Below are positions 588 to 11,742 of a stretch of 24,233 bases of DNA, piece by piece. The DNA is from a virus. The first letter of the stretch is position 1. Each line of letters begins with the position of its first letter. A program made the position numbers and the translations under genes. Location: positions 1-24,233 of IMG/VR virus record IMGVR_UViG_3300043803_001448. One strand, written 5' to 3'. The notes under the pieces were generated by a model. That model was not told the DNA's origin, made no database searches, and worked only from the letters and a program-made list of their open reading frames with translations.

Positions 588-691
588 CAGAACAGTTCTC
601 CTTCGGCCAAGGGTTCGAGGTCGGTCGGTTCTTCGGAGGGTGGAGGCTCGACACTTTCAGCCGCCTTGACTTTCCCAAGGAGTCGGCTCAT
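587..691 (-). CDS. Small acidic protein between replication genes
   Basis: A 34-codon frame starts at ATG 691, inside the end of the upstream replication gene, and stops in a TGATG overlap with the primase-helicase start. The product begins MSRLLGKVKAAESVEPPP and ends in an acidic, proline-rich tail (EEPTDLEPLAEGELF). A GTG at 703 is an alternative start. A purine-rich GGAAGG lies about 13 bases before the ATG. It fills the only gap between two replication genes and keeps the tight coupling of the operon. No function is recognisable. The acidic tail could be a protein-interaction peptide. The call rests on frame, coupling and protein-like composition only. Confidence 0.45.
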   Translation of the reverse strand: MSRLLGKVKAAESVEPPPSEEPTDLEPLAEGELF

Positions 692-1370
692 GGGTCTGCT
701 CACCTTCCGGTTCAGGCAGGGGCCAAAGGTCGCCGGGTTGTGGATTCTTTTGGGATGGCATGTAGCCCTGAGCTTTCCAAGAGCGGATTGTCATCTGCCA
801 GTTTTTGATCTTCTGCTTGCCGTTCATCCAGCCGTTACCTTCCCACTTTGACCACAAGGCTTCAGCGTCCCTTGGGGTTAAGCCATTGTCTCGGCAGAAC
901 TGGTCGATTTCTTCGCGAGTGGCACGGGAAAGGTTTTTGGAAGGCTTTGCTGTTTCCTTGTCTTGTTCTTTGTCTTTGTCTTTGTCTTTGTCTTTGTCTT
1001 GTTCTTGGAGGGTATTAATACCCTTAACAAACCCTTTCGTTACCCTTTCCAAATCGAGTCCGTGACGATCAATCAGGTTCAAAACATTCTTGTGAGGCCT
1101 GCAATCTGAGGACAAAACACCATATTGCTCGGCCACAAAGTTGACGATCCACAGCTTACCATTGACGGATTCTACGCGCCCATGAAACTCATTAAGCGTT
1201 ACATCGGACACCTTCAATCCAATCTGGAAGGAGGCTAAATCCCAGTCAGGCTCAATTACTCCAGCGGCATCACATTTGTCATGAAGCCAATACCAGAGAA
1301 GTTTAGCGTTTGGAGATAGTTTGCGAAACCAAACCTCTTCCCATTTTGAAGTTTCTGTGAAGCGTTTCAC
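657..1370 (-). CDS. Winged-helix phage replication protein (DnaD/replisome-organiser type)
   Basis: The preferred start is GTG at 1370, not the ATG at 1418. The GTG sits 7 bases after AGGAGG and overlaps the upstream HNH stop as GTGA. The 237-residue product opens with KRFTETSKWEEVWFRKLSP and LLWYWLHDKCDAAGVIEPD, the usual opening of phage replisome-organiser winged helices. A linker of five Asp-Lys repeats follows. The C-terminal block has FCRDNGLTPRDAEALWSKW, GNGWMNGKQKIKNWQMT and WKAQGYMPSQ, a motif seen at the end of many phage helicase-loader or initiator proteins. The likely role is origin binding or helicase loading, which fits its place one gene before the primase-helicase. Which of these two roles it plays is inference. 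Confidence 0.7.
   Translation of the reverse strand: MKRFTETSKWEEVWFRKLSPNAKLLWYWLHDKCDAAGVIEPDWDLASFQIGLKVSDVTLNEFHGRVESVNGKLWIVNFVAEQYGVLSSDCRPHKNVLNLIDRHGLDLERVTKGFVKGINTLQEQDKDKDKDKDKEQDKETAKPSKNLSRATREEIDQFCRDNGLTPRDAEALWSKWEGNGWMNGKQKIKNWQMTIRSWKAQGYMPSQKNPQPGDLWPLPEPEGEQTHEPTPWESQGG
969..998 (-). repeat. Hexamer tandem repeat coding for (Asp-Lys)5
   Basis: Five uninterrupted copies of TTTGTC (plus strand), read as GACAAA on the coding strand. They give five Asp-Lys dipeptides in the linker between the two domains of the replication protein. Unit changes keep the reading frame, so slippage would alter linker length and charge rather than switch the gene off. Confidence 0.9.
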
Positions 1371-1729
1371 GGTTGGTCCTCCTTGTTTTCTTTTCGTATG
1401 CAGGTTTCGCAAATCCATTCGTGCTTTTCGTCTCTACCGTTGATTTCTTCTTCTGGTTTGAGGGTCTTGCAAAGGTGACAGATTGCGTAAATCGGCCTCT
1501 TGCCTTCGTGCTGCCTATTGTGACAATCGAGGCATAGGGTCTGGAGTAAACACGACGGGTAATCCCACGGCAACCATCCCGGAACATACCCGGTGTGATG
1601 GACGCACAGGGTTACTTCTGGATAGCGCCTTCCACATGAAAGGCACTTGTTGCCGTCAATAGATAGCTGTTCTCGACGCTTCGCCAGCCAGCGGTTATCT
1701 AACAGTAAGTTCGCATACCATTTGTTCAT
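1367..1729 (-). CDS. Small HNH endonuclease-like protein with two zinc sites
   Basis: The 120-residue product has a classic HNH core: CLSCGRR (residues about 29-35), CVHHTGYVPGW (His-His of the first element) and LCLDCHNRQHEG (second zinc pair plus the final His). This matches small phage HNH nucleases that nick or cut DNA with one metal ion. A second Cys4 unit follows, CHLC near residue 85 and CETC near residue 110, which could hold another zinc and bind DNA. The stop overlaps the GTG of the replication protein. It could be a free-standing homing nuclease or a replication-associated nuclease; the sequence does not decide. A structured 5' leader lies just upstream. Confidence 0.75.
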   Translation of the reverse strand: MNKWYANLLLDNRWLAKRREQLSIDGNKCLSCGRRYPEVTLCVHHTGYVPGWLPWDYPSCLLQTLCLDCHNRQHEGKRPIYAICHLCKTLKPEEEINGRDEKHEWICETCIRKENKEDQP

Positions 1730-1743
1730 AACTCTAAAAAGGC

Positions 1744-1804
1744 CCTGCCCACACAGCCAAGGGTGGAAAACCGACGAGCGCGGCGTCCTTGACAGGTGGG
1801 CAGG
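1744..1804 (-). promoter_or_regulatory. Structured leader before the HNH gene
   Basis: In the 160-base gap between genes, a perfect 9-bp inverted repeat (CCTGCCCAC 1744-1752, GTGGGCAGG 1796-1804) encloses a second 5-bp pair (CAAGG 1758-1762, CCTTG 1787-1791). A small GACG/CGTC hairpin sits at the tip when read on the minus strand. On that strand the outer stem is followed by GCCTTTTTAG and then the HNH ATG. It could be a terminator or attenuator with an enlarged loop, or a regulatory leader. It does not match a riboswitch class I can name. Confidence 0.45.
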
Positions 1805-1889
1805 ATTTAATCTTTAGGGTTTTCATTGCTCGTTGAGCCGTTTCCACGCGGCTTTCCTCGTCTATACCACAGCGCAAAACGCTGTCAAA

Positions 1890-2486
1890 TCACTCAGGCT
1901 CGCCAATCTGGCATTCAGCCGTGTAGAGGTGCTCAAGGGACTCGAAGCGGGGCAGTTCTTCGCATGACTTGGCAAACGCGGCATCCACGCTCAAAACGCG
2001 GTTGTTCGGCACTGCGGCAAACCATCCATGCTCAACCTGAAGGACGTGGAGCTGTTTATGCTGTTCAAAATCGTTTGCTAGGGCATTCCCCTCGAAATCA
2101 ATCGTGAACAAGTAGCGAGAAGCCAGCCTTGCCGGGTATCCTTCAATGCCACGCACGTTCAACAGTTGAGCATTGCCGCGTTTCCACAGGCCAAACTCAT
2201 GCACGGTAAAGGTCGATGAGAAAGTGTCCCACGGCTGAATCAGTTCCACGTCTGGTAGCTCGCATGGTTTCCAGCACAAGGCTTGGATCGGCAGGCAAAA
2301 CATGGCACCCGCGCACTCAGGATCGTCGAACCGGACTTGGAATTGCAGGCTCGCTGCTTCCTGACAGCGGATGCCGAGGATGTGGGCTTTCAGGTATCTG
2401 CCCTTCCCGCTGGTGTGATTCTGCGTGAACTCCTTGCGGACGAGGCAACGGACGATGGATGGAGCGTCGGAAAGAATGTAGGGCAT
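1890..2486 (-). CDS. Hypothetical protein, 198 aa
   Basis: A long leftward frame starts at ATG 2486, with GAGG about ten bases upstream inside the sequence following the previous stop. The soluble-looking product has no signal peptide or membrane segment. It contains GRYLKAHILGIRCQEAASLQF near residue 30 and several scattered cysteines with no clear zinc spacing. The second half is rich in aromatic residues (FTVHEFGLWKRG, VEHGWFAAVPNNRV). I do not recognise the family. Position among small genes of the leftward arm suggests an early, non-structural phage protein. The frame is accepted for its length, orientation and fit between neighbours. Confidence 0.65.
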   Translation of the reverse strand: MPYILSDAPSIVRCLVRKEFTQNHTSGKGRYLKAHILGIRCQEAASLQFQVRFDDPECAGAMFCLPIQALCWKPCELPDVELIQPWDTFSSTFTVHEFGLWKRGNAQLLNVRGIEGYPARLASRYLFTIDFEGNALANDFEQHKQLHVLQVEHGWFAAVPNNRVLSVDAAFAKSCEELPRFESLEHLYTAECQIGEPE

Positions 2487-2510
2487 GATATTGAGCCTCG
2501 TTGGTCATGA

Positions 2511-2669
2511 CTACCCAGCAATCAAACTAAGCACATAAAGCATGCACGCGATAAGGCCGACCAGAAAAATCAGGCTGACAAACACGGCGTAGCAGCCAAC
2601 GCCGACAGCGACGTATTTGTTGGTGGATTCAAGTAAAGGTTTCGGGGGCGTTTGGGGTGGTTCGTTCAT
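2511..2669 (-). CDS. Small single-pass membrane protein, 52 aa
   Basis: A 52-codon frame begins at ATG 2669, overlapping the previous stop as ATGA. The N-terminus is proline-rich and polar (MNEPPQTPPKPLLESTNKY). It is followed from about residue 20 to the end by one hydrophobic stretch with the sequence AVFVSLIFLVGLIACMLYVL near residues 28-47, long enough to cross a membrane once. The N-terminus is probably cytoplasmic or periplasmic; the charges do not decide. No holin or superinfection motif can be named. Possible roles include membrane anchoring, host takeover or exclusion, all inference. Confidence 0.65.
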   Translation of the reverse strand: MNEPPQTPPKPLLESTNKYVAVGVGCYAVFVSLIFLVGLIACMLYVLSLIAG

Positions 2670-2953
2670 GGGAGGTAGGGTTTGAGTTTGGTGAGCAGCT
2701 TGCTTCCTTCTTTAATCGCCATAATCTTCGCATTGGCTGGCTGCATTCCGCCCGAACAAGCCATAGAGAGCTGGTCGATTACCAACGCAGACTCCTGAAT
2801 CAACCATCGCATCGCCGCATTCTCGCGTTCGAGTTGGCGGGCGAAGTCTGCATCTCGCATCGTGTCTTGTGGCTCAAGTCCATGATGATATAGCTCAATC
2901 CTTCTTTTGAAGAAGGCATCTGTCCTCGGTGTAGGTATTTCAGTTTCGTTCAT
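2666..2953 (-). CDS. Phage protein with PRTDA and FARQLERE motifs, 95 aa
   Basis: The start is ATG 2953, chosen because AAGGAG lies 8 bases before it; longer upstream codons would intrude deeper into the neighbouring gene. The product starts MNETEIPTPRTDAFFKRR and has DADFARQLERENAAMRWL near the middle. The combination 'TPRTDA ... DFARQLERE' is a familiar pattern in uncharacterised proteins of many tailed phages. The FARQLERE region is predicted to form an amphipathic helix or short coiled coil. The end overlaps the next gene as ATGA. Function is unknown in the family. Confidence 0.7.
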   Translation of the reverse strand: MNETEIPTPRTDAFFKRRIELYHHGLEPQDTMRDADFARQLERENAAMRWLIQESALVIDQLSMACSGGMQPANAKIMAIKEGSKLLTKLKPYLP

Positions 2954-3179
2954 ATTGTTTATCTCCTTCGTTCGAGAAAACCTCCACCATATCATCCAGT
3001 TCGTCAACGGCGGCATCCCAAATAGCGATGCGGTGGATAGGGTGGTAGCTTGAGATTTGATGGGCCAGCAGGTCGATGAGGATTTTCGTCACTTCCTCCT
3101 TGTCCACGCGGGTTGCAGACAACGTAGAGGTGAGACGATGCGCTAGGCGATGGGCTGGCGAGGCTTTGGTGTTGGGCAT
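2940..3179 (-). CDS. Hypothetical protein, 79 aa
   Basis: The start chosen is ATG 3179, four bases after the stop of the upstream zinc protein. A longer frame reaching 3383 would overlap that gene almost fully and is rejected. The product begins MPNTKASPAHRLAHRLTST and ends with an acidic helical part (WDAAVDELDDMVEVFSNEGD). It overlaps the next gene by 14 bases, and the Shine-Dalgarno site of that gene lies inside its end. I do not recognise a family; it appears to be a small, mainly helical early protein. Confidence 0.55.
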   Translation of the reverse strand: MPNTKASPAHRLAHRLTSTLSATRVDKEEVTKILIDLLAHQISSYHPIHRIAIWDAAVDELDDMVEVFSNEGDKQYERN

Positions 3180-3183
3180 GTGA

Positions 3184-3393
3184 TTAAGACGGGATTTCAA
3201 TAAATGCCAAACCATCACAAACTTCGCATGTATGCCTTGTGGCTTCTTTATGATCTGGAAAGCAAGGATTTCCATCCGCATCATAGCACTGAATTTCTTT
3301 GCCATCGCCGTCGCAGTGGGGGCATTTGCGAAATGCGATAACGCCTTTGATGACATCTCGAAGCCAATCTGTTTCACAAACAATAGAGTTCAC
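3184..3393 (-). CDS. Small zinc-ribbon protein (DnaJ-type CxxCxG), 69 aa
   Basis: The start is GTG 3393, overlapping the resolvase stop as GTGA. The product has CPHCDGDGKE at about residues 24-33 and CEVCDGLAFIE near residue 56. The two CxxCxG units, separated by about 30 residues, look like the zinc-binding repeats of DnaJ and of many small phage proteins. Each unit should supply half of one Cys4 zinc site. No catalytic motif is present. A role in protein or nucleic-acid binding is a guess from the fold type. Confidence 0.7.
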   Translation of the reverse strand: MNSIVCETDWLRDVIKGVIAFRKCPHCDGDGKEIQCYDADGNPCFPDHKEATRHTCEVCDGLAFIEIPS

Positions 3394-3839
3394 TTGATAG
3401 TCCTCCGGCAGTATTCAGCGATCAGCAAAGCATCTGATATGGCGTGCGTGCATTTGATGTGCGGGAAAAGCTGCTGAGCGCGGCTTTTGCTCACGTTTTT
3501 ATCGCCACCAGTCAGGCATCCAAGCTCCTTCTGCCACTTCTGAGGGGTGACGTAGGTGAATGGGATTCGGGCGGCAGTGAGGGCCATTTCGAGATGACCG
3601 AAGCCTTGTCCGAACTTGAAAGAGGAAGCCACGCCTTGACCGGGCATGGAGTGGACCTTTTCGAGGCAAGCGTGAAGCATTCTGTGGTCGGGGTCTTCGC
3701 TAACTTGTTCAACAAGCAAGTCCCACAAATCCGCCAAAGTTTCAGGCATTTTTACAGCCCAAGCCTTTGCCGAATTATTGTCGGGAATGAATGCGATGCC
3801 TCCCGATGCGCCGGGGTCTATTCCGATGGTTAGTTTCAT
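3390..3839 (-). CDS. RuvC-like Holliday junction resolvase
   Basis: The 149-residue product opens with LTIGIDPGASGGIAF, the first RuvC/RNase H-fold motif that carries a catalytic Asp. It has CLEKVHSMPGQGVASSFKFG near residue 60 (second acidic residue and the conserved MPGQG segment) and ends with HAISDALLIAEY, the HxxSDA motif with the last catalytic Asp. This is the common compact phage RuvC-like nuclease, which resolves branched DNA before packaging. Length matches the family. It is coupled to the next gene by GTGA and to the previous one by ATGA, inside a recombination cassette with Sak4-like and ssDNA-binding proteins. Confidence 0.85.
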   Translation of the reverse strand: MKLTIGIDPGASGGIAFIPDNNSAKAWAVKMPETLADLWDLLVEQVSEDPDHRMLHACLEKVHSMPGQGVASSFKFGQGFGHLEMALTAARIPFTYVTPQKWQKELGCLTGGDKNVSKSRAQQLFPHIKCTHAISDALLIAEYCRRTIK

Positions 3840-4018
3840 GCCTTCTCTTGTGCGATGATTTGAACAAAGGGCTTACCGATGCCGGTCGAGCGATACTTGA
3901 GGTCGATCACAGCGCCACAGGCATGCGAGCCGAGGAACTGGATTTTGACCTCTACGGGAACGTCGCCTTGCGTGGCTTTGATGGCTTCGAGTTGGGTGAT
4001 TAGTTCGGAGATGGGCAT
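3836..4018 (-). CDS. Hypothetical small protein, 60 aa
   Basis: ATG 4018 starts two bases after the MazG-like stop, and the end overlaps the resolvase start as ATGA. The product begins MPISELITQLEAIKATQGDVPVEVKIQF. The opening 'helix, then GDVPVEV strand' resembles many small phage proteins of unknown role that start with SELIxxLExLxxxxGDxPV. The remainder suggests a small alpha/beta domain. No catalytic residues are evident. The tight coupling supports it as a real gene of the cassette. Confidence 0.6.
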   Translation of the reverse strand: MPISELITQLEAIKATQGDVPVEVKIQFLGSHACGAVIDLKYRSTGIGKPFVQIIAQEKA

Positions 4019-4020
4019 AT

Positions 4021-4377
4021 TCAGGCGAGTTTACCGTGCATGTGCGGACGGCTGGCGTTGTATTGCATTTTCATGTGAATGGCGCGTCCAAGGTCGATGT
4101 CGAATGCGCGAGCGGAGTCGAAGGCGCGGATAACGATGTCAGCGAACTCTTCCTCTGCGCAGGTGAGCGGGATGTCTTTGTCACATGGCATGTTGAGCAT
4201 GCCTTTGCGTGCAGCCTCCCAAAGCTCGGAGATTTCGCCGTGGAGGTTGGCTGTCCATGCAGCCATAAGTTCCACGTCAGACTTGTCCATATCGCCGTCG
4301 TGAAAGCCTTTGATAGCAGCGTTCTCGTAGGCGTCGGATGCGATTGTATTGATGGTGTCGATTTGATCGGATGTCAT
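4021..4377 (-). CDS. MazG-like nucleotide pyrophosphohydrolase
   Basis: The start ATG 4377 gives 118 residues; an upstream extension into the neighbouring gene was rejected. The all-alpha NTP-PPase signature is visible: LHGEISELWEAARKG (ExxE motif, about residues 45-60) and CAEEEFADIVIRAFD (ExxD motif, about residues 75-90). These four acidic residues bind magnesium and hydrolyse (d)NTPs to monophosphate and pyrophosphate. The end, with IHMKMQYNASRPHMHGK, also matches phage MazG-like proteins. In phages such enzymes may adjust nucleotide pools or alarmones. It sits between the ssDNA-binding gene and the resolvase. Confidence 0.8.
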   Translation of the reverse strand: MTSDQIDTINTIASDAYENAAIKGFHDGDMDKSDVELMAAWTANLHGEISELWEAARKGMLNMPCDKDIPLTCAEEEFADIVIRAFDSARAFDIDLGRAIHMKMQYNASRPHMHGKLA

Positions 4378-4438
4378 ATAAGCAACTGTAAGCTGAGTTG
4401 TGCGCGTTGTCGAGTCGCGCCCCTCGGTTGTTGATGGT

Positions 4439-4903
4439 CTAAAACGGGATGGGAGAGCTGCCATCGTCCTCGTCTTCTTGTTCCGCCTGCTTGATGAAGG
4501 ATGGCTTGGCGGCGTCTTTCTCTGCCTTCTTGGCAGCCTTAGAGCCGTAGTCCTTCACGACGTTCTTGGCGGCATAGTCGCCAGATGCAGGCTCAATGTC
4601 GATCTTGACCTTGCCAGCGCATCCAACGAGGTCTGCGGCCTCAATAGCGCCAGCCTCGTAAGCGTTAATCATGCCGACAGTCTCGAAGAAATGGCGCAGC
4701 TTGAATGCCATCGCCTCCATCAGGTAGTCGGTGACAAACTGGAAGCCCTCGCCGTGGAAGACCTTCAGGTTGACTTTAATCATTTCCTTGCCGCTCTTTT
4801 TGGAAACGGCATCTTCGGCTTTAACGACCTCGAAGTCGTATTCCCCCTTGGGAAGGAGGTTTTCAAATTCGAGTTCTTCTGGTGTTTTGGGTGTGAAGCG
4901 CAT
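4439..4903 (-). CDS. DUF669-like ssDNA-binding protein with SSB-type tail
   Basis: The 154-residue product starts MRFTPKTPEELEFENLLPKG and contains YDFEVVKAEDAVSKKSGKEM, the usual opening of DUF669-type phage proteins, which act as OB-fold ssDNA-binding partners of phage recombinases. A lysine-rich linker follows. The C-terminus is strongly acidic and ends EQEDEDDGSSPIPF. This copies the acidic tail of bacterial SSB with its terminal Pro-Phe, which docks partner proteins. The next gene upstream is a Sak4-like ATPase, the expected partner. Single-strand annealing with these two proteins is a well-supported pathway; the exact activity here is inferred. Confidence 0.75.
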   Translation of the reverse strand: MRFTPKTPEELEFENLLPKGEYDFEVVKAEDAVSKKSGKEMIKVNLKVFHGEGFQFVTDYLMEAMAFKLRHFFETVGMINAYEAGAIEAADLVGCAGKVKIDIEPASGDYAAKNVVKDYGSKAAKKAEKDAAKPSFIKQAEQEDEDDGSSPIPF

Positions 4904-4917
4904 GGCTTGTGTTTGGT

Positions 4918-5802
4918 TTACTTGGTGGGGGTGATTTTGGCGAGGAGGGCGGCGATAGCTTTGGATGCCTGCTCAGTGGTGAGTTCGCTCCAGTCAGAAG
5001 CGGAGGCTTTTGTAAGCCACTTCTGCTTCTCTTCTTCGCTCATCTTGAGCAGGTCGGAAAGACGAACGATTTCAGCCACTTGTTCGGGCGTAGCAAGGGT
5101 GATTGTTGTAACAGATTTTTCGATGACATCTTTGCCATACATGGATGCGAACGTCTCATAATCGAGTTGAAATCTTTCGTTCTCTGGAAATCCAAGCAAG
5201 CGTGATTTACGGATGACTCCATAGCGTGAGCTTCCTTGTTTAACCACTCGAAAGGTGAGGTCCAACTCGTATGCCAACTTATCAAAGCAATCGAAGGTGA
5301 AGCCAATAGCAACTCGATTCCCTTTAGCGTCTTGACCCCACTCTTCTTTTTCATGGGTGATGATGATAACGTTCATATCCAGACGATGAATCCAGTTGAT
5401 GAATCTGCGCATGAAGGCAATTCCCGGCTTCTTGGAAGCGCCGAACTGGTCTTTATCGCCGAGTCGTTCAGACTCAGCCGCAATGATGGTATTAAAAATT
5501 TTGGTGGCCGAGTCGATTACTAGGGTTTCATATCCATGCTTCTCAGTCGCTAGGGCTTGGAGCTGGCTGATGATAGTTTCAGGGTCAAGGGAGCCATCTT
5601 CGGGACCAAGGATTACGCCGCCGCCCTTGGCTAGTCGATCCATGTAATGCGTTCGAGAAACGCCTTGTTCACTGTCGATGTAGAAGACCTTTTTAAATGA
5701 CAATGAGAACCACGATTTTCCCACGCCGGGTGGGCCGTAGATGAGAACCTTGGGCTTGGTTGGCTCGACTTGTGACGGTGCTTTTGCTTTTAGTTTAGAC
5801 AT
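4918..5802 (-). CDS. Sak4-like RecA-fold recombinase ATPase (AAA_24)
   Basis: The 294-residue product has a Walker A motif GPPGVGKSWFS (about residues 23-33). Next come FYIDSEQGV, a Walker B-like ETLVIDSATK (about residue 95) and MNVIIITHEKEEWGQDAKG (about residue 148), which matches the sensor region of phage Sak4/AAA_24 proteins. These are single-domain RecA-like ATPases that promote homologous recombination with a phage SSB. The C-terminal 60 residues form a helical extension, with LSDLLKMSEEEKQKWLTKA. The start at 5802 overlaps the upstream HNH gene by eight bases. The adjacent ssDNA-binding gene strengthens the call. Confidence 0.8.
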   Translation of the reverse strand: MSKLKAKAPSQVEPTKPKVLIYGPPGVGKSWFSLSFKKVFYIDSEQGVSRTHYMDRLAKGGGVILGPEDGSLDPETIISQLQALATEKHGYETLVIDSATKIFNTIIAAESERLGDKDQFGASKKPGIAFMRRFINWIHRLDMNVIIITHEKEEWGQDAKGNRVAIGFTFDCFDKLAYELDLTFRVVKQGSSRYGVIRKSRLLGFPENERFQLDYETFASMYGKDVIEKSVTTITLATPEQVAEIVRLSDLLKMSEEEKQKWLTKASASDWSELTTEQASKAIAALLAKITPTK

Positions 5803-6265
5803 ATATCTTTCGCGCTTTGTTGTTCTTTATCTTACTAATCCCGGATCGGGTGATCGGGAAAAACTGAGCAATGTGAGAGCATGTTTTTCCACTCTCTAAC
5901 ATCTTCCTGATTTCTGAAACTTGTTCGTCGGTCAACTTGCTCCTACCGCATCTACTGCCTCTTGCGTAGCAGTTTGGCTTCGTCATGCTGGCGTGCCTTC
6001 CTTTTCTAAGGCAGTCTTGCATGTTATCTTTTTGCGAACCAACAAATAAATGCTCAGGATTTACGCACCTGCGATTGTCGCATTTATGGCAAACGTGCTG
6101 TTCCTTCGTTAAGGCCACTTGAAAAAAGTCTTGGTAAACAGCCCTATGTGCTGGCATCACTCGACCGTTAAAAAATGCCTGACCATAGCCGTTTTGGGCT
6201 ATGTATTTTGTCCACTCCATGCAGCCATCACTCGTAAGAGTTGAATTAAGATGCAGATTTTTCAT
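5795..6265 (-). CDS. HNH_3-type endonuclease with C-terminal HTH
   Basis: The 156-residue product begins with the usual phage HNH_3 opening (GCMEWTKYIAQNGYGQAFF). The nuclease core follows: MPAHRAVYQDF, HVCHKCDNRRCVNPEHLFVG with the His, Asn and final His of the HNH site, then NMQDCLRKGRHA. From about residue 108 a helix-turn-helix is visible: CGRSKLTDEQVSEIRKM, GKTCSHIAQFF and TRSGISKIKN. This architecture is that of free-standing phage homing endonucleases, where the HTH sets target specificity. It overlaps the Sak4-like gene and the small basic gene upstream, so it has been accommodated without loss of either. Mobility is inferred from family behaviour. Confidence 0.8.
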   Translation of the reverse strand: MKNLHLNSTLTSDGCMEWTKYIAQNGYGQAFFNGRVMPAHRAVYQDFFQVALTKEQHVCHKCDNRRCVNPEHLFVGSQKDNMQDCLRKGRHASMTKPNCYARGSRCGRSKLTDEQVSEIRKMLESGKTCSHIAQFFPITRSGISKIKNNKARKIYV

Positions 6266-6386
6266 GGCGACGTTTTTTGTTCAACTCGATCATTCGAGCG
6301 CGTCGTTTTTGACGCTCTTTTAAAGAGAAGTTTTTAGACTTCCCCTTAGCCAGCTTTCCAAGCTCTGAGGCTGCTTTGTTTTTCAT
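6246..6386 (-). CDS. Small basic protein (ELGKLA...RRAR type), 46 aa
   Basis: A 46-codon frame from ATG 6386 overlaps the HNH start by 20 bases. The product reads MKNKAASELGKLAKGKSKNF, then SLKERQKRRARMIELNKKRR, with about a third Lys plus Arg. The order 'ASELGKLAKGKSKNFSxxERxKRRARMIELN' resembles small proteins common on phages and plasmids (ELGRLGGKARSKALSPERR...). They are annotated only as hypothetical and are presumably nucleic-acid binding. The leader GGTTACTCATAATG and an upstream palindrome fit a true start. It is the first gene after the noncoding block and terminator, so it may head the cassette transcript. Confidence 0.6.
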   Translation of the reverse strand: MKNKAASELGKLAKGKSKNFSLKERQKRRARMIELNKKRRHEKSAS

Positions 6387-6403
6387 TATGAGTAACCAGT
6401 CTC

Positions 6404-6421
6404 ACAATAAGCGGATATTGT
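6404..6421. promoter_or_regulatory. Operator-like palindrome upstream of the recombination cassette
   Basis: ACAATA (6404-6409) and TATTGT (6416-6421) are perfect inverted copies six bases apart. They lie 18-35 bases upstream of the small basic gene and just downstream, in the leftward direction, of the terminator. Read on the minus strand, TTGACAATATCC overlaps it and could supply a -35-like hexamer, but no convincing -10 at normal spacing is seen. It may be a repressor site controlling the cassette. Confidence 0.35.
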
Positions 6422-6424
6422 CAA

Positions 6425-6464
6425 TAAGAAAAAGAACAACCCGCCTGAGTGAACAGACGGGTTG
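6425..6464 (-). terminator. Rho-independent terminator (leftward)
   Basis: On the minus strand an 11-bp stem with one G-U pair (CAACCCGTCTG and CAGGCGGGTTG, 6437-6464) has a six-base loop and is followed by TTCTTTTTCTT. It stands six bases after the 3' end of the tRNA-like element and before the cassette's first gene. This is the strongest terminator seen in the leftward arm. Confidence 0.8.
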
Positions 6465-6468
6465 CTTT

Positions 6469-6573
6469 TGAGTGCGGCAGGATTGGATACCTGCACGATA
6501 TTTTGCAATCTGGCGACTAGGCTTCACTTTCGTTAGGCTTTCGTCATCCTGCGTCTAATTCCGCCACGCGCTC
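6469..6573 (-). tRNA. tRNA-like element, type II (Leu/Ser-like), degenerate
   Basis: The minus-strand start has acceptor GAGCGCG, then TG, then GCGGAATTAGACGC, which closely follows the tRNA-Leu 5' half (GTGGCGGAATTGGTAGACGC) but lacks the GG of the D-loop. The 3' side has a perfect T stem (GCAGG, CCTGC) around TATCCAAT, one base longer than the canonical T loop, then CGCACTC, which pairs with the acceptor except for one C-A mismatch. No CCA is encoded. The middle (56 bases) is about 20 longer than expected, contains near-repeats of ACGAAAG and AAGCCTA, and gives no proper anticodon stem. Length is 105 bases. It may be a pseudo-tRNA, a tRNA with an insertion, or a tRNA mimic; an intact tRNA is unlikely. 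Confidence 0.45.
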
Positions 6574-7067
6574 AAATTAATTGCCTGCCGCCGCATCGTC
6601 CGTTCCTTCTTATGGATACACGGTAGCCAACAAGGGCAATTATGCTCGATGCGCTTCGCTTCTCGCCATCGGGGATTCCCAATGCTAACGGATTGGCTAG
6701 AACAGCACAGTTACGGCAGGCAAATTGGCGACCCGGGCCTCTCATTCGGCTTTCACCGGAGAAGCTCCCTACACTCATTGAACAGGCAAGAACTAGTTAC
6801 TTCCTGATTTTAGTGTCGCGGTTTGGTCTCTTGCGGACCTTTGCGCCGAGTCATTTGGAAAACAGAATCCAGCGGGAGGTTTGCTACGTCTCGCTACTTC
6901 GCTTGCAAGGCTTCGGGTCGCAATTCCCCGTTTTCGCTTACCGCTGGATTCTGCTTTCAGTTGTCAAAGATCAAGGTGCCCTCTCCGACATTCCAGACTG
7001 GAGGGAACAGTCTTCACTAGGTAACGCTAATACCTCGGCGTGTGTCGGTCACGGAGTAACCTTACGT
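6574..7067. other. Noncoding stretch with hairpins, upstream of the tRNA-like element
   Basis: About 490 bases without a convincing gene. Frames on either strand lack ribosome sites and recognisable content; a 68-codon leftward frame (6572-6778) is possible but runs through hairpins. Visible structure includes a long inverted repeat (6858-6958), a GAAA-capped hairpin with a three-base bulge (6735-6767, minus strand), a GACTG/CAGTC hairpin near 7000 and an orphan ribosome-site block at 7054-7073. Together with the downstream terminator, this may be a structured leftward transcript, a decayed gene, or the remnant of a mobile intron. Confidence 0.5.
6858..6958. repeat. Long inverted repeat (18 bp arms, one mismatch)
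   Basis: GAAAACAGAATCCAGCGG (6858-6875) and CCGCTGGATTCTGCTTTC (6941-6958) are inverted copies with a single mismatch, 65 bases apart. The spacer is itself partly self-complementary (TTGC/GCAA and GCTTCGGG-type pairs). The arms could form a long RNA stem, or be the ends of a tiny inverted-repeat element. No target-site duplication is evident at the outer edges. Confidence 0.75.
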
Positions 7068-7292
7068 TTATTCTGGCATGTTATCAAGTGTCCAGTTTGG
7101 TTTTTTGATGTCGTGCATGAAATTGTTCAACTTCCGGCCCATCTCATACCCGCGATCAAACTCCTGCGCTTTCTCGTTAAGCAGGCGCACGTTCCAGTTG
7201 CGGTTAAAGCCGATGAAGGCCGGGACGACGAATGCCAGAATGAACGTGGCACCTGCAAAGAAGGGAATTAGGAGAGCTTCTAAATCGGTCAT
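7068..7292 (-). CDS. Small membrane protein with cytoplasmic tail, 74 aa
   Basis: ATG 7292 overlaps the previous stop as ATGA and gives 74 residues. The N-terminal half is one membrane segment (about residues 5-30, including LLIPFFAGATFILAFVVPAF). The C-terminal half is charged, with NVRLLNEKAQEFDRGYEMGRK, and should lie in the cytoplasm. A longer frame reaching 7709 would run through two other genes and is rejected. The topology recalls small phage anchor or exclusion proteins, but no family is recognised. Immediately after its stop comes an unused ribosome-site block and the noncoding stretch. Confidence 0.65.
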   Translation of the reverse strand: MTDLEALLIPFFAGATFILAFVVPAFIGFNRNWNVRLLNEKAQEFDRGYEMGRKLNNFMHDIKKPNWTLDNMPE

Positions 7293-7465
7293 AGCTTCGC
7301 TTGTTGTTCGAGTTGACTCAGGCATTCTGGATGCACCGCCGCCCATGAGGTGATGATAGCCTGCATGGCACCGTTTTCTACGGCTAGGCGGTCGCGTAAG
7401 GGGAAGAGTGATACATGGTGTGCGAGGATGGTGTCGAGGTATTGGCTGGCTAGGAGGTGCGGCAT
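7289..7465 (-). CDS. Hypothetical protein, 58 aa
   Basis: This 58-codon frame starts at ATG 7465 and ends in an ATGA overlap with the small membrane protein. The product begins MPHLLASQYLDTILAHHVSL and contains RDRLAVENGAMQAIITSWAA, suggesting a helical domain. No purine-rich ribosome site precedes the ATG; the leader is CCCCCCTTCCTA. It fills the gap between two genes in the same direction, and the coupling makes it likely to be translated. Function is unknown. Confidence 0.55.
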   Translation of the reverse strand: MPHLLASQYLDTILAHHVSLFPLRDRLAVENGAMQAIITSWAAVHPECLSQLEQQAKL

Positions 7466-7488
7466 TAGGAAGGGGGGTCGAATATAGA

Positions 7489-8088
7489 TTACTCAGGCCA
7501 GTTTCCAGACTCGGCTTTTGACCAGAATGCCTTGGCAATCTCCTCGTTGCCTTGGGCGAGTCGAAGATATTCAGCTTTCTTTCGAGCGCGAACTTCGGTG
7601 TCATAGATGCGCTGGCGAATGATTCCAAGGTCGTCTCGGCACTCTTCGCAGAGCTTGGTGAAATCCTCGCAAGGCGTGTCATCTTCGTATTCCTTGAGCT
7701 TTGTGGCAAAGTTGGTCAGCGGGAAAGCGGACACATATCGCTCCATGACCGAGAACTCGCCGTTGATGATTTTTGCTCGCCTTACCGGATAGCCTTCCTC
7801 CTCAACAAAAAGGGCGTTTTTCAGAGCGTTGCGAGCCTCGTCGGGAGTAACGAAGCAGATGCCGCTGCGCTCAACTCCGCCGTATTGTTTTGGCGTGCAA
7901 ATCTCGTAGAATGTTTTGCAGTCAGCGGGCAGGTTGAAACCGGAGCAGCCGATGTTTTCAACGATGTTGTCGAGCGAGAGCGGCGTTTTGATGCCACGGT
8001 GGATGGCTTCAATTTTAACCGCGTCTGTCATCTGCTCGCTGGAAAGGGCGAGTTTTTCGGATTCTGTGAGGTCGAAGTAGCGTTTCAT
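7489..8088 (-). CDS. Hypothetical protein, 199 aa
   Basis: ATG 8088 starts just after the previous gene, behind CAAACAAACCAATAAT, an A/C-rich leader without a Shine-Dalgarno site. The 199-residue product opens MKRYFDLTESEKLALSSEQM and has a helical first part. A CGFN-type segment (NIVENIGCSGFNLPADC) and a C-terminal helical region (CEECRDDLGIIRQRIYDTEV, then ARKKAEYLRLAQGNEEIAKA) follow. The opening resembles phage proteins that begin 'F(D/N)LT..EKL.L....M'. No enzyme motif was found. It is likely an early accessory protein of unknown role. Confidence 0.65.
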   Translation of the reverse strand: MKRYFDLTESEKLALSSEQMTDAVKIEAIHRGIKTPLSLDNIVENIGCSGFNLPADCKTFYEICTPKQYGGVERSGICFVTPDEARNALKNALFVEEEGYPVRRAKIINGEFSVMERYVSAFPLTNFATKLKEYEDDTPCEDFTKLCEECRDDLGIIRQRIYDTEVRARKKAEYLRLAQGNEEIAKAFWSKAESGNWPE

Positions 8089-8089
8089 A

Positions 8090-8284
8090 TTATTGGTTTG
8101 TTTGTCTAGTTTCAGTTAGTGCGAGGCGTTTTACTTTACGTTTACGAGGCTTGAAGGTGCCCGGTAGCTTTAACCGGCGCAGCAGGGAGGAATCGAGGAG
8201 GACAACGCGGCCCTTGAACTCGACTCCGTGCTCGATGCAGTATCGAGTAGCGGCGTCGATTTGGATGGCGGGGCGAAGGATCAT
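8090..8284 (-). CDS. Hypothetical basic protein, 64 aa
   Basis: ATG 8284 overlaps the upstream stop as ATGA, and the frame ends one base before the next start. The product has MILRPAIQIDAATRYCIEHG at the N-terminus and KPRKRKVKRLALTETRQ at the C-terminus. The strongly basic tail suggests nucleic-acid binding, but no fold is recognised. Coupling on both sides supports it as a gene. Confidence 0.55.
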   Translation of the reverse strand: MILRPAIQIDAATRYCIEHGVEFKGRVVLLDSSLLRRLKLPGTFKPRKRKVKRLALTETRQTNQ

Positions 8285-8652
8285 GATTGCCAGAGATTTA
8301 GCGTGCGGAGGAAGGCTTCGCAGCGTTGGGCAGCGGTCGATGTAATAGCCATTTGATAACCATCTGCTAGTTCTGTTGAATCTTCATTTAAGCCACGATC
8401 CCGCACCGCAATATGAGCAATCCAATATGAGTATTCGCTATTGAATTGCATTTCTTTGATTTTCTCCGCATCGTGCATGGCATCGAGACTGTTGAGGTAG
8501 TCGGGAATTTGCTGCGGATAAGCCCGTTCTCCATCTGGACTAATCCAAGGAAACGAGTCCTCGATTGGTATTCCGGCTATGCGCAGATCGCGAGTATCGT
8601 GTTTCCATCCGCATGCTTTAGCGATGGCGATTTTTTGCAGTTCTGGTTTCAT
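8281..8652 (-). CDS. Phage protein with PDYLNSLDAMHDAEK motif, 123 aa
   Basis: The start chosen is ATG 8652, which overlaps the upstream stop as ATGA; an in-frame ATG at 8691 would intrude into that gene. The product opens MKPELQKIAIAKACGWK and contains PQQIPDYLNSLDAMHDAEK near residue 50. 'PxYLNxLNAMHEAE' is a hallmark of an uncharacterised family frequent in phage genomes, usually 90-150 residues long. The C-terminal half has tryptophan and alanine-rich helices (TAAQRCEAFLRTLNLW). Family function is unknown. Confidence 0.7.
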   Translation of the reverse strand: MKPELQKIAIAKACGWKHDTRDLRIAGIPIEDSFPWISPDGERAYPQQIPDYLNSLDAMHDAEKIKEMQFNSEYSYWIAHIAVRDRGLNEDSTELADGYQMAITSTAAQRCEAFLRTLNLWQS

Positions 8653-8828
8653 ACGATTTTCCTCACGGTGTTTTCTGGCAGCACTCCCCAAGTCTCGCCA
8701 AACGAAAGTCGGACGTAGGGTTTGTTGACGGCGATCACTTGGCCTTCGCCTCGCAGGGGATGACGGATGCGGTCGCCTGCTACGAGGTTTTGCGGCTCAT
8801 AGGGTTGGGGTTTGAGTAGGTGTTTCAT
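8649..8828 (-). CDS. Small SH3/Tudor-like domain protein, 59 aa
   Basis: A 59-codon frame from ATG 8828 ends in an ATGA overlap with the next gene. The middle reads AGDRIRHPLRGEGQVIAVN, then PYVRLSFGETWGVLP. 'GDxVxHPxxGxGxV' followed by a short beta strand is the signature of the Tudor/SH3-like domain found at the C-terminus of UvrD/PcrA helicases and in stand-alone small proteins. It probably binds a protein or nucleic-acid partner. The start lies one base after the upstream zinc protein. Confidence 0.65.
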   Translation of the reverse strand: MKHLLKPQPYEPQNLVAGDRIRHPLRGEGQVIAVNKPYVRLSFGETWGVLPENTVRKIV

Positions 8829-8829
8829 A

Positions 8830-9018
8830 TCAATCGTCAGGGTATTTAAGGTCGTCTTGGAGAATGTCGGCCAAACGTTCTGCCTCGTTTTGATCTTCGC
8901 AGGCTTCGCAAAGTTCGCCGTATTCTTGAACGGGTTCTCCGCATTGCTCGCAAGATGGAGGCTGTTTCAAGGCGTCAATTTCCTTGTCGGAAGGTTCGCC
9001 GTATCGGGTGAAGCGCAT
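8830..9018 (-). CDS. Small acidic zinc-ribbon protein, 62 aa
   Basis: ATG 9018 is preceded by TAAGGTTACTC, with AAGG as a short ribosome site. The product has CEQCGEPVQEYGELCEACED, a compact Cys4 unit with two CxxC pairs 12 residues apart, typical of a zinc ribbon. The ends are charged and acidic (EAERLADILQDDLKYPDD). No catalytic motif is present. The leader of this gene is repeated almost exactly at 7054-7073, where no gene follows. Confidence 0.65.
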   Translation of the reverse strand: MRFTRYGEPSDKEIDALKQPPSCEQCGEPVQEYGELCEACEDQNEAERLADILQDDLKYPDD

Positions 9019-9026
9019 GAGTAACC

Positions 9027-9155
9027 TTACGTTAATTCAGCGAGGAGTTCAAGTTTTTTTGCGGCTCCTAATTTTGCGTCTCCTAAACCGGCAGGCCGTG
9101 AACGTCGCATTCGACGACGGATAGCAACGTCGCGCCTCGGTGCCAGTCGTTCCAT
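9027..9155 (-). CDS. Possible small basic protein overlapping its neighbour, 42 aa
   Basis: A 42-codon frame (ATG 9155) runs in another frame than the upstream gene and overlaps it by 73 bases. It ends at the TAA that forms part of the next gene's ribosome site. The product has an Arg-rich start (MERLAPRRDVAIRRRMRRSR) and a helical end (DAKLGAAKKLELLAELT). An internal ATG at 9110 would shorten the overlap to 28 bases. The helical end and the fit to the next gene favour translation; the long overlap argues against the full length. Confidence 0.35.
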   Translation of the reverse strand: MERLAPRRDVAIRRRMRRSRPAGLGDAKLGAAKKLELLAELT

Positions 9156-9265
9156 CCTTGACGGATAGCGGCGGAAGACTGGCCGGGGAGAGTTATCGAG
9201 TAGGAGCGCGGGCCGATGGTGTAAGTGACGAGGAAACGGGCGACGGAGCGAGGGCGGCTAAACAT
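9083..9265 (-). CDS. Hypothetical protein, 60 aa
   Basis: ATG 9265 follows a strong hairpin and a pyrimidine-rich leader. The product begins MFSRPRSVARFLVTYTIGPR and contains SYSITLPGQSSAAIRQGWND, a pattern of beta strands and one helix. It ends SVVECDVHGLPV. I have no named family, though short proteins with similar strand-helix patterns occur in phages. No clear ribosome site is visible, as at several genes nearby. Confidence 0.5.
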   Translation of the reverse strand: MFSRPRSVARFLVTYTIGPRSYSITLPGQSSAAIRQGWNDWHRGATLLSVVECDVHGLPV

Positions 9266-9269
9266 GGGG

Positions 9270-9303
9270 AGAAAGAAGCCGCCCCCCGGCGAAAGGGAGC
9301 GGC
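9270..9303 (-). terminator. GC-rich hairpin with pyrimidine tail (terminator candidate)
   Basis: On the minus strand GCCGCTCCC and GGGGGCGGC form a 9-bp stem with one G-U pair, followed by TTCTTTCTCCCC. It lies between two leftward genes, so it may give partial termination or protect an mRNA end. Confidence 0.5.
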
Positions 9304-9317
9304 GAGGGGTGGAGGGG

Positions 9318-9623
9318 TTATTCGGTGTAGCCTGCGGCTAGGAGGGCGGTTTTGGCCTTTTCTATTACCTCCAAGTTCACGATTGCGGCGGGGTGGCTCC
9401 CTTTTCGGTAGTGAGTATTTGAGGGCGACAAAATAGCCTCCAAAGCCGCCGCCAGTTGTGGAGCGGCGGCGATTAGGCGGGCGTTTGCTTCCGTATTTTT
9501 GCCGGGGTTGCTGCGGGACGGTATGAAGCAGACGCGGCTGCCATCCGGCGCGATAGGGTCATAAAATCCTGCGGTGGGCAATTCTGGCGTCCAAGGCCCC
9601 GGTGTGATGTTTGGAGCTTTCAT
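9318..9623 (-). CDS. Phage protein of the ITPGPW ... NARLIAAAP family, 101 aa
   Basis: The chosen start is ATG 9623, overlapping the upstream stop as ATGA and placing the conserved NITPGPW at the N-terminus. The product has KAPNITPGPWTPELP, then NTEANARLIAAAPQLAAALE and a final TALLAAGYTE. This arrangement is a widespread hypothetical family in tailed phages. Its function is unknown, and the C-terminal half is helical. A second member lies at 11764-12057, so this genome carries two paralogues. GGAAAGGAG lies about ten bases before the ATG. Confidence 0.75.
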   Translation of the reverse strand: MKAPNITPGPWTPELPTAGFYDPIAPDGSRVCFIPSRSNPGKNTEANARLIAAAPQLAAALEAILSPSNTHYRKGSHPAAIVNLEVIEKAKTALLAAGYTE

Positions 9624-9793
9624 GGGTTGATCGCTCCTTTCCGGTTCCGTTGTGCGTGGCAAATCGTGCTTTGATCCAAGGCGATGCCACGATAAAATAC
9701 CGTAAACCATCCCGCATGGATGCGGCGAACGCCAGCGGCTCGCAAGAGCGCGTTGTTATCCATTTTTCCAGCCTCAATTTGTATGGTTTTCAT
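9620..9793 (-). CDS. Hypothetical protein, 57 aa
   Basis: A 57-codon frame from ATG 9793, with GGGGGGAGGG about seven bases before it, a strong though G-rich ribosome site. The end overlaps the next start as ATGA. The product begins MKTIQIEAGKMDNNALLRAA and continues with GVRRIHAGWFTVFYRGIALD. It could be a small alpha/beta domain. No family is recognised. Ribosome site plus coupling make translation likely. Confidence 0.6.
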   Translation of the reverse strand: MKTIQIEAGKMDNNALLRAAGVRRIHAGWFTVFYRGIALDQSTICHAQRNRKGAINP

Positions 9794-9796
9794 AAC

Positions 9797-10129
9797 TCAA
9801 CCCTCCCCCCTTCCATCCTTGCGGCTGGCGCGGATTTCATCGGCAAGCGCGGCCCGCTCCTCATTGCGGCGAATTTGCTGCCGATGCGCGGCGAGTTCTT
9901 GCGCGGAGGCGAAGCGAGAGGGGAGAATTTCCACCTTCAGGCGAGCGGCGAGGGTGTAAAAGTCCGTCGTGCTCATAGAGCCGAGAGGAACGCGGAGTTC
10001 TCCGGCTTCGTCTTTGCGGACTTCGCAAGCCTGCGCTTGACCGTTGGGGAGCTTGTCCAGAGACAAGCCTATGACGTTATTCGCGGCGACGTAGCCGGAA
10101 GGGTTATTGAACATTTCAGCGTGTATCAT
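9797..10129 (-). CDS. Hypothetical protein, 110 aa
   Basis: ATG 10129 follows an A/C-rich leader (AACACACCGCTAAACGTAT) rather than a Shine-Dalgarno site; ATG 10114 is an alternative five codons on. The product contains SGYVAANNVIGLSLDKLPNG, then VRKDEAGELRVPLGSMSTTD and FYTLAARLKVEILPSRF. A C-terminal charged helix is rich in Arg and Glu (RRNEERAALADEIRASRK). It may have a small beta domain plus coiled coil. The gene's leader begins right after a hammerhead ribozyme, so its mRNA would start with a ribozyme-made 5' end. Confidence 0.6.
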   Translation of the reverse strand: MIHAEMFNNPSGYVAANNVIGLSLDKLPNGQAQACEVRKDEAGELRVPLGSMSTTDFYTLAARLKVEILPSRFASAQELAAHRQQIRRNEERAALADEIRASRKDGRGEG

Positions 10130-10163
10130 ATACGTTTAGCGGTGTGTTTTGTGTTTAGGTGGG

Positions 10164-10228
10164 GCTCTGTCTCATCAGTGGCAGGGGAGCAGCCTACCAG
10201 ACCGGCGCGGGGCCGGTTTCGACTATGC
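10164..10228 (-). ncRNA. Type II hammerhead ribozyme
   Basis: On the minus strand the order is GTC, GAAA, stem III (CCGGC and GCCGG around CCCGC), TC, stem I (TGGTAGG and CCTGCCA around CTGCTCC, one G-U pair), CTGATGA, GAC. Every conserved hammerhead core position is present: CUGAUGA, GAAA, the A15.1-U16.1 pair and C17. Stems I and III are closed by loops while stem II is open, which is the type II permutation. Stem II has three pairs (GAC/GUC), then a symmetric AGA/AUA internal loop and two more pairs. Cleavage is predicted between 10200 and 10199. The 3' strand of stem II overlaps the TAG of the upstream gene. Confidence 0.85.
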
Positions 10229-10456
10229 GCGATTGTGGGCGCAATGGTTGAGGGCTACAAAACGCGCCCCGGCCTCATTGCAGGCTTTCACTTTAACCAT
10301 TTTCCCGGATGCGTTCGGAACGGTGAAGGCGGGCCAATCTCCGAGAGTCGGACCAACTCGCTCGAAATCATGCCTACAAGGCGACAAGTCGCAATTGCAC
10401 GTTTTGGGCGGTGGATGGCTCCCGGTAGGTCTGCCGGTGAAATAGGTGGAGTTCAT
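10223..10456 (-). CDS. Cys-rich hypothetical protein, 77 aa
   Basis: The start is ATG 10456, one base after the stop of the upstream gene. A longer frame to 10567 would overlap that gene and is not preferred. The product has PPKTCNCDLSPCRHDF near residues 17-32, a possible metal site made of Cys and His. GDWPAFTVPNASGKMVKVKA and a C-terminal ALNHCAHNRA follow. No family is recognised. Its TAG stop lies inside the hammerhead ribozyme, so ribosomes finishing this gene would run into the ribozyme's stem II. Confidence 0.6.
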   Translation of the reverse strand: MNSTYFTGRPTGSHPPPKTCNCDLSPCRHDFERVGPTLGDWPAFTVPNASGKMVKVKACNEAGARFVALNHCAHNRA

Positions 10457-10457
10457 A

Positions 10458-10871
10458 TCAGAGCCAGCGGTGTTTGAGTGCGTAGCCGTCGCCTTGATCG
10501 CGGAAAAGGGTGGAGGAAAGGCAATAGACAAGGTGAAAGCCCATATCCATTCCGCAGCCTCCGACAATCACGGAGCCGTCATCATGCCAGCGCCATTCGA
10601 GAACGTCCGAAACGATGCCGGAAATGTTCATAATTTCGCCGTCAGGGTGGATGATTAGCGGCTTGATGCGGCGAGACATACCGGATTTAGAAACGTGCTT
10701 TAGAACGGTGTAAACCGTCGCGCCGGGTTTGATCCAATCGCGCAGCTTGGCCTTTTGTTGTTCGCGGTGGGCAGCTTTGCCAGCCTTGTCAGATAGAACG
10801 GTGGAGCCGTCCCAAGTTTCGGGGTTGTGGACGCGGTAAATCTGGCCTTCTTTGGTTTTGATGTATTTCAT
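10458..10871 (-). CDS. Phage protein with SKSGMSRRI and GGCGMDMGFHLVY motifs, 137 aa
   Basis: The product carries LKHVSKSGMSRRIKPLIIHP (about residues 57-76) and VGGCGMDMGFHLVYCLSSTL (about residues 102-121), and ends GYALKHRWL. These three blocks define a common tailed-phage family of unknown function, often described only as hypothetical. Length fits the family. The start ATG 10871 follows ACTAAAACACGCTAT, an A/C-rich leader shared with other genes here. The likely fold is alpha/beta; no catalytic role is known to me. Confidence 0.75.
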   Translation of the reverse strand: MKYIKTKEGQIYRVHNPETWDGSTVLSDKAGKAAHREQQKAKLRDWIKPGATVYTVLKHVSKSGMSRRIKPLIIHPDGEIMNISGIVSDVLEWRWHDDGSVIVGGCGMDMGFHLVYCLSSTLFRDQGDGYALKHRWL

Positions 10872-10898
10872 ATAGCGTGTTTTAGTGAGGATTGAGAT

Positions 10899-11048
10899 TT
10901 ACAGAATGACGATGATAACCGCAACCGCAACCAGTGCGAGGATGCAGCGGAGCGCGTGGCGTTTTTGTTCGCCTAGTGGCGGGCGATAACCGGGGTAACT
11001 GGGCAGGGTTAATGTATGCGCGTGTTTATATGTTTTGAGGGTGGGCAT
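10899..11048 (-). CDS. Small tail-anchored membrane protein, 49 aa
   Basis: A 49-codon frame from ATG 11048. The N-terminal 34 residues are polar and basic (MPTLKTYKHAHTLTLPSYPG, then YRPPLGEQKRHALR). They are followed by a C-terminal hydrophobic stretch ILALVAVAVIIVIL that ends at the stop codon. The basic residues before the membrane segment favour an N-in topology. The segment is short, about 15 residues, so insertion is likely but not certain. The frame fills a gap between two leftward genes. No family is recognised. Confidence 0.5.
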   Translation of the reverse strand: MPTLKTYKHAHTLTLPSYPGYRPPLGEQKRHALRCILALVAVAVIIVIL

Positions 11049-11076
11049 GGGTGGCGTGGTGTTAGGGGTGAAAGGA

Positions 11077-11742
11077 TCAGGCGTGAATCGTTTGGAAGGC
11101 CTCGCGCATGTCGCGGCGGAGATTGTGAAACTCTCGCTTCATGCGTTCGCAGAGTCCGGGCGAAAGTTTGCTGGCGCGTATTTCCGCCAGCAGTTCGCGG
11201 GCTTCTTCGCGGGCAGCGTCTAGCGCGGCTTTGGCGTCTTCGATGGCTTGCTCCTTGGCTTGGCGTTCGCTTTCCGCGCGGTCATCCTCGCGGGAGCCTT
11301 CTGCGTAGCATTCTGCGAATCCATCAGCAGCGCGCGCGGCCTCTTCCTGTGATTCGTAGAGGCATGGGGAGCCGTTGCCAGTCACTTCTACGATGCAGGG
11401 GCCGCGCCCTTCCTCGTCTGTCTGGAATGGATCAGCAATTGCAGCGATGAAACGGCCATGCGGGAGCAGGTAAACAACGCCGCGCGCAGTTTCGTCTAAT
11501 TCATCGTGACGGGTGAACCATCCCGTGTGCCGTAGATTCGCGATTTTGTGAGCAAGGCCGATGAAGCGGAAAGGCGTTTCCGGGGATTCGTGCCAGCGTC
11601 CGAAGGTGGAACGGGAGCCGACATTTTCGCCGATAGGGAAGGGAGTGCCGCCCCATCGTGAGGAATAGTCGGCAGTTTTGAAGGGCGAGACGTATTTACC
11701 TGCGCGTTTAGCGGCTAGGCGTTGGCGAATGTGTGTTTTCAT
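11077..11742 (-). CDS. Phage protein with HTGWFT ... GVVYLLPHGR motif, 221 aa
   Basis: The product contains LRHTGWFTRHDELDETARG and VVYLLPHGRFIAAIADP (about residues 70-105). CLYESQEEAARAADGFAECY and a long charged helix (about residues 145-200) with many Glu, Arg and Ala follow. The 'HTGWF ... RGVVYxLPHGR ... AAxxAD' order is found in many hypothetical phage proteins. The C-terminal helix probably forms a coiled coil. The role is unknown. The start ATG 11742 follows CACTGAAAACGC, without a Shine-Dalgarno site. Confidence 0.7.
   Translation of the reverse strand: MKTHIRQRLAAKRAGKYVSPFKTADYSSRWGGTPFPIGENVGSRSTFGRWHESPETPFRFIGLAHKIANLRHTGWFTRHDELDETARGVVYLLPHGRFIAAIADPFQTDEEGRGPCIVEVTGNGSPCLYESQEEAARAADGFAECYAEGSREDDRAESERQAKEQAIEDAKAALDAAREEARELLAEIRASKLSPGLCERMKREFHNLRRDMREAFQTIHA

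Follow-up and report, generated by a model that had tools for sequence, protein, structure and literature searches.

The 24,233-nucleotide stretch of viral DNA analysed here (positions 1-24,233 of IMG/VR record IMGVR_UViG_3300043803_001448; hereafter 'the window', to which coordinates refer unless a locus is named) contains on its minus strand, at 10161-10224, a type II hammerhead ribozyme that we read, with a probability of about 0.68, as a mark for cutting the transcript of a co-directional phage operon between two of its genes. By sequence and structural criteria it is a member of Rfam family RF02276, and self-cleavage is predicted from that membership. Type II hammerheads of phages are most often found next to a stop codon, as here, and in related phages the equivalent junction carries either a homologous hammerhead or a different structured RNA.

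The ribozyme and its homologues

The hammerhead core (CUGANGA, GAAA, the A15.1-U16.1 pair and H17) is complete and in correct order in the minus-strand sequence, and the type II order is satisfied by closed stems I (7 bp) and III (6 bp) and an open stem II of 3 bp (Table 1). Stem III is formed by A10217-C10212 and G10206-U10201, and stem I by 10199-10193 and 10185-10179, with one G-U among its pairs. Four Watson-Crick pairs join loop I to the tail, forming a pseudoknot of the kind that is typical of type II hammerheads (PMC3088659); the same interaction extends to 7 bp among homologues (UUAGCCU/AGGCUAA) and, among the matches listed from IMG/VR, comprises at least five pairs in 126 of 267 copies, as compared with about 15 when loops were shuffled. 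An earlier note on this DNA, made from its letters, had given the range as 10164-10228, which spans this pseudoknot without naming it. The type II hammerhead described there, with its core, stems, cut site and gene-boundary position, is borne out by the sequence, the Rfam match and the homologues, as is a predicted cut about 70 bases before the gene at 9797-10129, the ATG of which (10129) lies 70 nt past that point.

The copy aligns to the whole RF02276 model with an E value of 2.5e-7 for the 24-kb record, and a permissive scan of 401 nt against all 4227 Rfam families returned Hammerhead_II at E 1.7e-5. The gathering score of the family is 37 bits, and an Rfam scan of the window at that level gave no match because this copy scores 2.3 bits below it; the covariance search proposed in the earlier note thus fell short for the copy itself (34.7 bits) and succeeded for its relatives, with a homologous copy above 37 bits in 7 of the 24 records searched. 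Plain folding energy equals that of shuffles (z 0.03), as expected for a motif that is defined by its core, and about 1.7 Mb of shuffled sequence, scanned for the motif with a check of the stems, contained no match. To judge from its 4-bp pseudoknot, 3-bp stem II and sub-gathering score, the copy may cut more slowly than its relatives.

Table 1. Coordinates of the ribozyme, its parts, the neighbouring genes and the corresponding elements of related loci
Feature	Position	Strand	Basis or remark
Type II hammerhead ribozyme	10161..10224	-	RF02276 model positions 1-66 of 66, 34.7 bits
Stem II 5' strand GUC	10221..10223	-	sequence; G shared with the upstream TAG (its third base)
Core GAAA (A10217 is A15.1)	10217..10220	-	sequence; invariant among homologues
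Stem III hairpin, 6 bp including A15.1-U16.1, loop CCCGC	10201..10217	-	sequence and compensatory changes
Predicted cut, C17 (10200) / U (10199)	10199..10200	-	predicted from the hammerhead rule
Stem I hairpin, 7 bp, loop CUGCUCC	10179..10199	-	sequence and compensatory changes
Core CUGAUGA	10172..10178	-	sequence; N7 (free position) alone varies among homologues
Stem II 3' strand GAC	10169..10171	-	sequence; 3 bp with GUC
Pseudoknot strand GAGC	10164..10167	-	sequence; partner GCUC in loop I, 10190-10187
Next gene upstream, PHROG 12365	10458..10871	-	homologues in L021, L023 and L195, with the alternative hairpin RNA directly after
Upstream ORF, 77 aa	10223..10456	-	TAG adjoins ribozyme; without known family; 82% homologue in L422
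A/C-rich leader without Shine-Dalgarno motif	10130..10163	-	sequence
Downstream gene, 110 aa	9797..10129	-	conserved, with homologues at 28 IMG/VR loci; without match in Pfam or PHROG
Homologous hammerheads	L002, L003, L006, L010, L012-L020, L025, L192
Alternative RNA, all loci	L004, L005, L007-L009, L011, L021-L024, L191, L193, L195
Alternative RNA, example	L011:4878-4982	+	also L004, L005, L008, L021, L023, L024, L191, L193, L195
Hairpin 1 alone	L014:4387-4475, L015:3850-3935, L017:4531-4662, L019:4385-4471, L192:109-191		phages that also bear a hammerhead

The surrounding minus-strand operon (657-11742) has A/C-rich leaders without a Shine-Dalgarno motif before most of its genes, which suggests a host that is not reliant on that signal. 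The stop codon of the upstream frame occupies 10225-10223; it adjoins the ribozyme, and the inclusion of the TAG in stem II, as given in the earlier note, reduces to its G. The 110-aa downstream protein found no match in Pfam or PHROG and no homologue in GTDB contigs, and its AlphaFold model (mean pLDDT 78), a small sheet with a long C-terminal helix, found no convincing match in the PDB (best E 0.06). A search of INPHARED for near phage relatives returned a sole match of 47 nt, outside the ribozyme: it lies at 10519-10565 on the minus strand, inside the PHROG 12365 gene, and shares 87% identity with the Caulobacter phages RBC63, RBC8 and RBC11. Long regular hairpins of 23 bp begin at, or just past, the stop codon of the 110-aa gene homologue in several related loci (L015:5325-5385, L019:5665-5725 and L025:5340-5400); none was seen in the window itself.

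Two scans with the 110-aa protein identified 28 related loci in IMG/VR, and in each of them a structured RNA precedes the homologous gene: a type II hammerhead, directly before it, in 15 and another RNA in 13. Across 11 aligned hammerhead copies, 97.1% of paired cells are able to pair (86.5% in shuffles) and 15 cells carry double changes (4.2 in shuffles), five pairs of stems I and III show compensatory change, and shifting the partners by one column lowers pairing to 41-45%; among the close forms (the window, L003 and L192) the differences in stem I likewise preserve pairing. The core loss in close relatives that the earlier note had named as refuting did not occur: every homologous hammerhead copy retains the core, with variation at N7 alone. 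Within this clade the hammerhead tracks the downstream gene and not the upstream one, and the gene that precedes this pair differs between loci, with at least six kinds found.

Placement relative to stop codons

Type II hammerheads are common in phages: pattern scans of IMG/VR, with stems checked and near-duplicates removed, yielded at least 267 distinct copies, of which 262 were usable for a survey of position. Among the matches listed, 168 of these 262 (64%) start between -1 and +2 nt of a stop codon that ends an ORF with a minimum of 50 codons, against 1.1% (maximum 2.3%) for shifted control positions, so that a placement which the earlier note had called unusual is instead the rule. The same arrangement was found for matches listed with a stem II other than GUC, which are copies not favoured by the first search pattern (65/123, or 53%, against 0.95%); for Rfam-defined matches alone (21 of 37 at -1 to +1, among the matches listed and at loci first fetched by pattern); and in GTDB genome contigs (17 of 38 at -2 to +2, against 0.6%). 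TAG makes up 48% of the adjacent stops among the matches listed, versus a background of 18%; its G can double as the first base of stem II.

Tight phage gene spacing, considered as the sole cause of this adjacency, explains much of it and not all. With uniform placement in the free gap, 114 of 234 matches listed with known neighbours would be expected to be adjacent, and 159 are. Where the gap has 10 or more free nucleotides, 66 of 132 matches listed sit tight to the stop side and 20 to the start side, and where it leaves at least 40 nt there are 23 on the stop side against 3.0 expected, with the caveat that small unannotated genes could inflate gap room, equally on both sides. Adjacency is also about 65% among matches listed that have no start of an ORF of at least 80 codons within 80 nt downstream; around one third of the surveyed hammerheads (matches listed) lie away from stop codons. 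In several phage contigs (L136, L059, L060 and L049), as many as nine type II hammerheads that score above the Rfam threshold are packed into a few kb, mostly between co-directional genes.

An alternative RNA and its exchange with the hammerhead

At the 13 loci that have no hammerhead, an unrelated structured RNA lies between the upstream stop codon and the A-rich leader. Its hairpin 1, of 19-20 bp, begins at the stop codon and consists of about 5 bp, a 1x1 loop, 4-5 bp, a small internal loop, 10-11 bp and a terminal loop of mostly 5 nt. Hairpin 2 has a loop containing UGCCC, to which a downstream GGGCA is complementary (UGCCCAU/AUGGGCA in L024), so that a pseudoknot is likely on sequence grounds; GGGCA is almost invariant, and its other possible partner is a CCC before hairpin 2. 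The general plan, in which a hairpin at the stop codon is followed by another that pairs through its loop with the tail, is like that of the hammerhead. Folding is well below shuffles in five representatives (z -3.4 to -6.0), and every helix shows compensatory changes.

An Rfam scan of seven of these loci gave no ribozyme match to E 10 and no convincing family, in agreement with inspection of the topology by hand, which ruled out HDV-like, pistol and twister-sister ribozymes. A pattern search for the RNA produced 18 matches, several of them unrelated on inspection, and the alternative-RNA model R1 was absent from 79 of 80 other hammerhead loci; as far as searched, the RNA is specific to this clade. 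Hairpin 1, with 19-20 bp making about two helix turns interrupted by small internal loops in 10 distinct sequences, fits the shape of an RNase III site, and it is probably a site of cutting by an enzyme, perhaps RNase III; otherwise it may be a structural end or, with low probability, a ribozyme of a type yet to be described. In the early genes of phage T7, intercistronic RNase III hairpins serve to cut the long early transcript, and these are similar to hairpin 1 in size and internal loops. The T7 sites need a host enzyme, while hairpin 1 is a candidate RNase III site by shape only.

The covariance model of the alternative RNA also located hairpin 1 without hairpin 2 in six phages (L012, L014, L015, L017, L019 and L192), at a gene end one or more genes further upstream of the hammerhead; in the usual arrangement gene A is followed by the hairpin, gene B by the hammerhead, and the conserved gene comes last. 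The best evidence that hammerhead and hairpin are alternative parts for one job is that the same gene families end in either. Genes of the ESK family are followed by the hammerhead in L010, L013 and L016 and by the hairpin in L014 and L017; those of the YAYRLN family by the hammerhead in L025 and by the hairpin in L008, L011, L015, L019 and L193; and the 77-aa gene by the hammerhead in the window and, in L422, where the homologous protein is 82% identical, by a stop-codon hairpin of about 20 bp. We therefore read the two, from these comparisons of sequence, as putative interchangeable intercistronic processing elements. The claim for hairpins at stop codons is restricted to these named junctions: the clade-wide excess of regular hairpins is weak (12 of 169 stop codons versus 60 of 4000 random positions) because the ORF filter lost real junctions, and a looser count was dropped, with random positions already at 14%.

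Proposed transcript processing and its alternatives

The proposed sequence of events is that an operon transcript would run through the 77-aa gene into the ribozyme, and that the RNA past the stop codon would make a single cut in itself, between positions 10200 and 10199. This would leave an upstream message that retains its stop codon and carries, at its 3' end, the stem III hairpin and a 2',3'-cyclic phosphate. The downstream message would begin with a 5'-OH, followed by the stem I hairpin with its loop-tail pairing, an unstructured leader and the ATG; the stable 5'-OH leader put forward in the earlier note would be this predicted end. In the type II permutation both stems beside the cut are closed hairpins, and both new ends would for that reason be capped; the upstream frame and its termination would stay intact, because the cut falls directly past the stop. 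Since position at a stop codon is the rule for phage type II hammerheads, it suggests that these ribozymes cut long transcripts into separate messages at gene ends. The processing of operon transcripts that the earlier note envisaged is accordingly a plausible role, one with comparative backing from the sequences of related loci.

The position also invites a reading in which translation controls the ribozyme, a control that the earlier note had raised and that the geometry would permit. A terminating ribosome reaches over the nucleotides just past a stop codon; at the TAG it would hide the GAAA and one strand of stem II and delay the cut, so that cutting would happen between ribosomes and the stop-codon position would couple it to translation. 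The sharpness of that position (-1 to +2 nt), the preference for the stop side even where there is room (both among the matches listed) and the alternative hairpins that likewise begin at the stop codon agree with such gating, which we nevertheless hold to be unlikely: a cut at the earliest possible point past the end of the frame predicts the identical position and is simpler. The stop-side preference (66 against 20 with room) and the adjacency of about 65% where no ORF of at least 80 codons starts within 80 nt, again among the matches listed, agree with a ribozyme that serves the upstream gene by giving it a short hairpin 3' end past the stop, the downstream gene being incidental. In this clade, however, it is the downstream gene that the homologous hammerhead follows, and service to the upstream gene is rather unlikely.

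Association with one downstream gene, while the upstream gene is any of six or more, might reflect a passenger at a recombination joint, which travels with that gene while upstream genes are swapped and has little effect on the phage. Such a history is decidedly unlikely, given that all hammerhead copies retain the core, that their stem changes are compensatory and that loci lacking the hammerhead are filled, in the same place, by another structured RNA. Those orthologous copies (15, with compensatory changes), together with the E value of 2.5e-7, the intact core and the empty scan of shuffled sequence, also make it extremely improbable that the motif is a chance match or a dead relic incapable of cleavage, for which its score under the Rfam gathering level and its shuffle-like folding energy could be cited. 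A cut mark between neighbouring genes is the reading that we prefer. Its boldest extension, in which interchangeable cut elements at stop codons are gated by ribosomes and the alternative two-domain RNA is itself an undescribed self-cleaving ribozyme, is quite improbable.

The ribozyme itself shows no difference from the type II hammerheads of RF02276 described in 2011 by Perreault (PMC3088659): the core, the order of parts, the closed stems I and III, the short open stem II, the loop I-tail pseudoknot and the intergenic setting in phages and prophages are all the same. Published type II hammerheads cut in vitro, cutting in vivo has been seen in E. coli for ribozymes from the ardA cluster of Agrobacterium, and among consensus hammerheads tested elsewhere 4 of 18 were inactive (PMC3088659). 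Like the window's copy, the HHphage ribozyme of haloviruses HF1 and HF2 stands just before an early viral gene, 13 nt ahead of a helicase gene and with an mRNA 5' end near the cut, but it is a structural variant from archaeal viruses, whereas the copy at 10161-10224 has the consensus core (PMC3088659). Prophage hammerheads beside ardA and other genes likewise lie between co-directional genes and were proposed to divide long phage RNA into gene-length messages; such clusters have several hammerheads each, and the present record has one only (PMC3088659). The synthetic insulator RiboJ similarly trims an mRNA 5' end and leaves a hairpin, but it is engineered, with an added 23-nt hairpin, and is placed after a promoter rather than, as with this natural type II ribozyme, after a stop codon (PMC7536230).

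The copy at 10161-10224 is therefore a further example of a known ribozyme type, and there are published precedents both for hammerheads that lie between genes of phages and for one that precedes an early gene of a virus and has an mRNA end mapped. The points that look new are the stop-codon rule, the bias towards the stop side and the replacement by another RNA at the same gene ends: stop codons go unmentioned in PMC3088659, and no mention of the rule was found in the literature searched, a scope outside which many subscription papers fall. The role of hammerheads in bacteria and phages has been described as an open question (PMC6155905). The stop-codon rule, the stop-side preference and the natural swaps together lead to a testable proposal for that role, namely that the ribozyme parts neighbouring messages right after translation ends, and a closed hairpin on both new ends could explain why type II hammerheads are common in phages.
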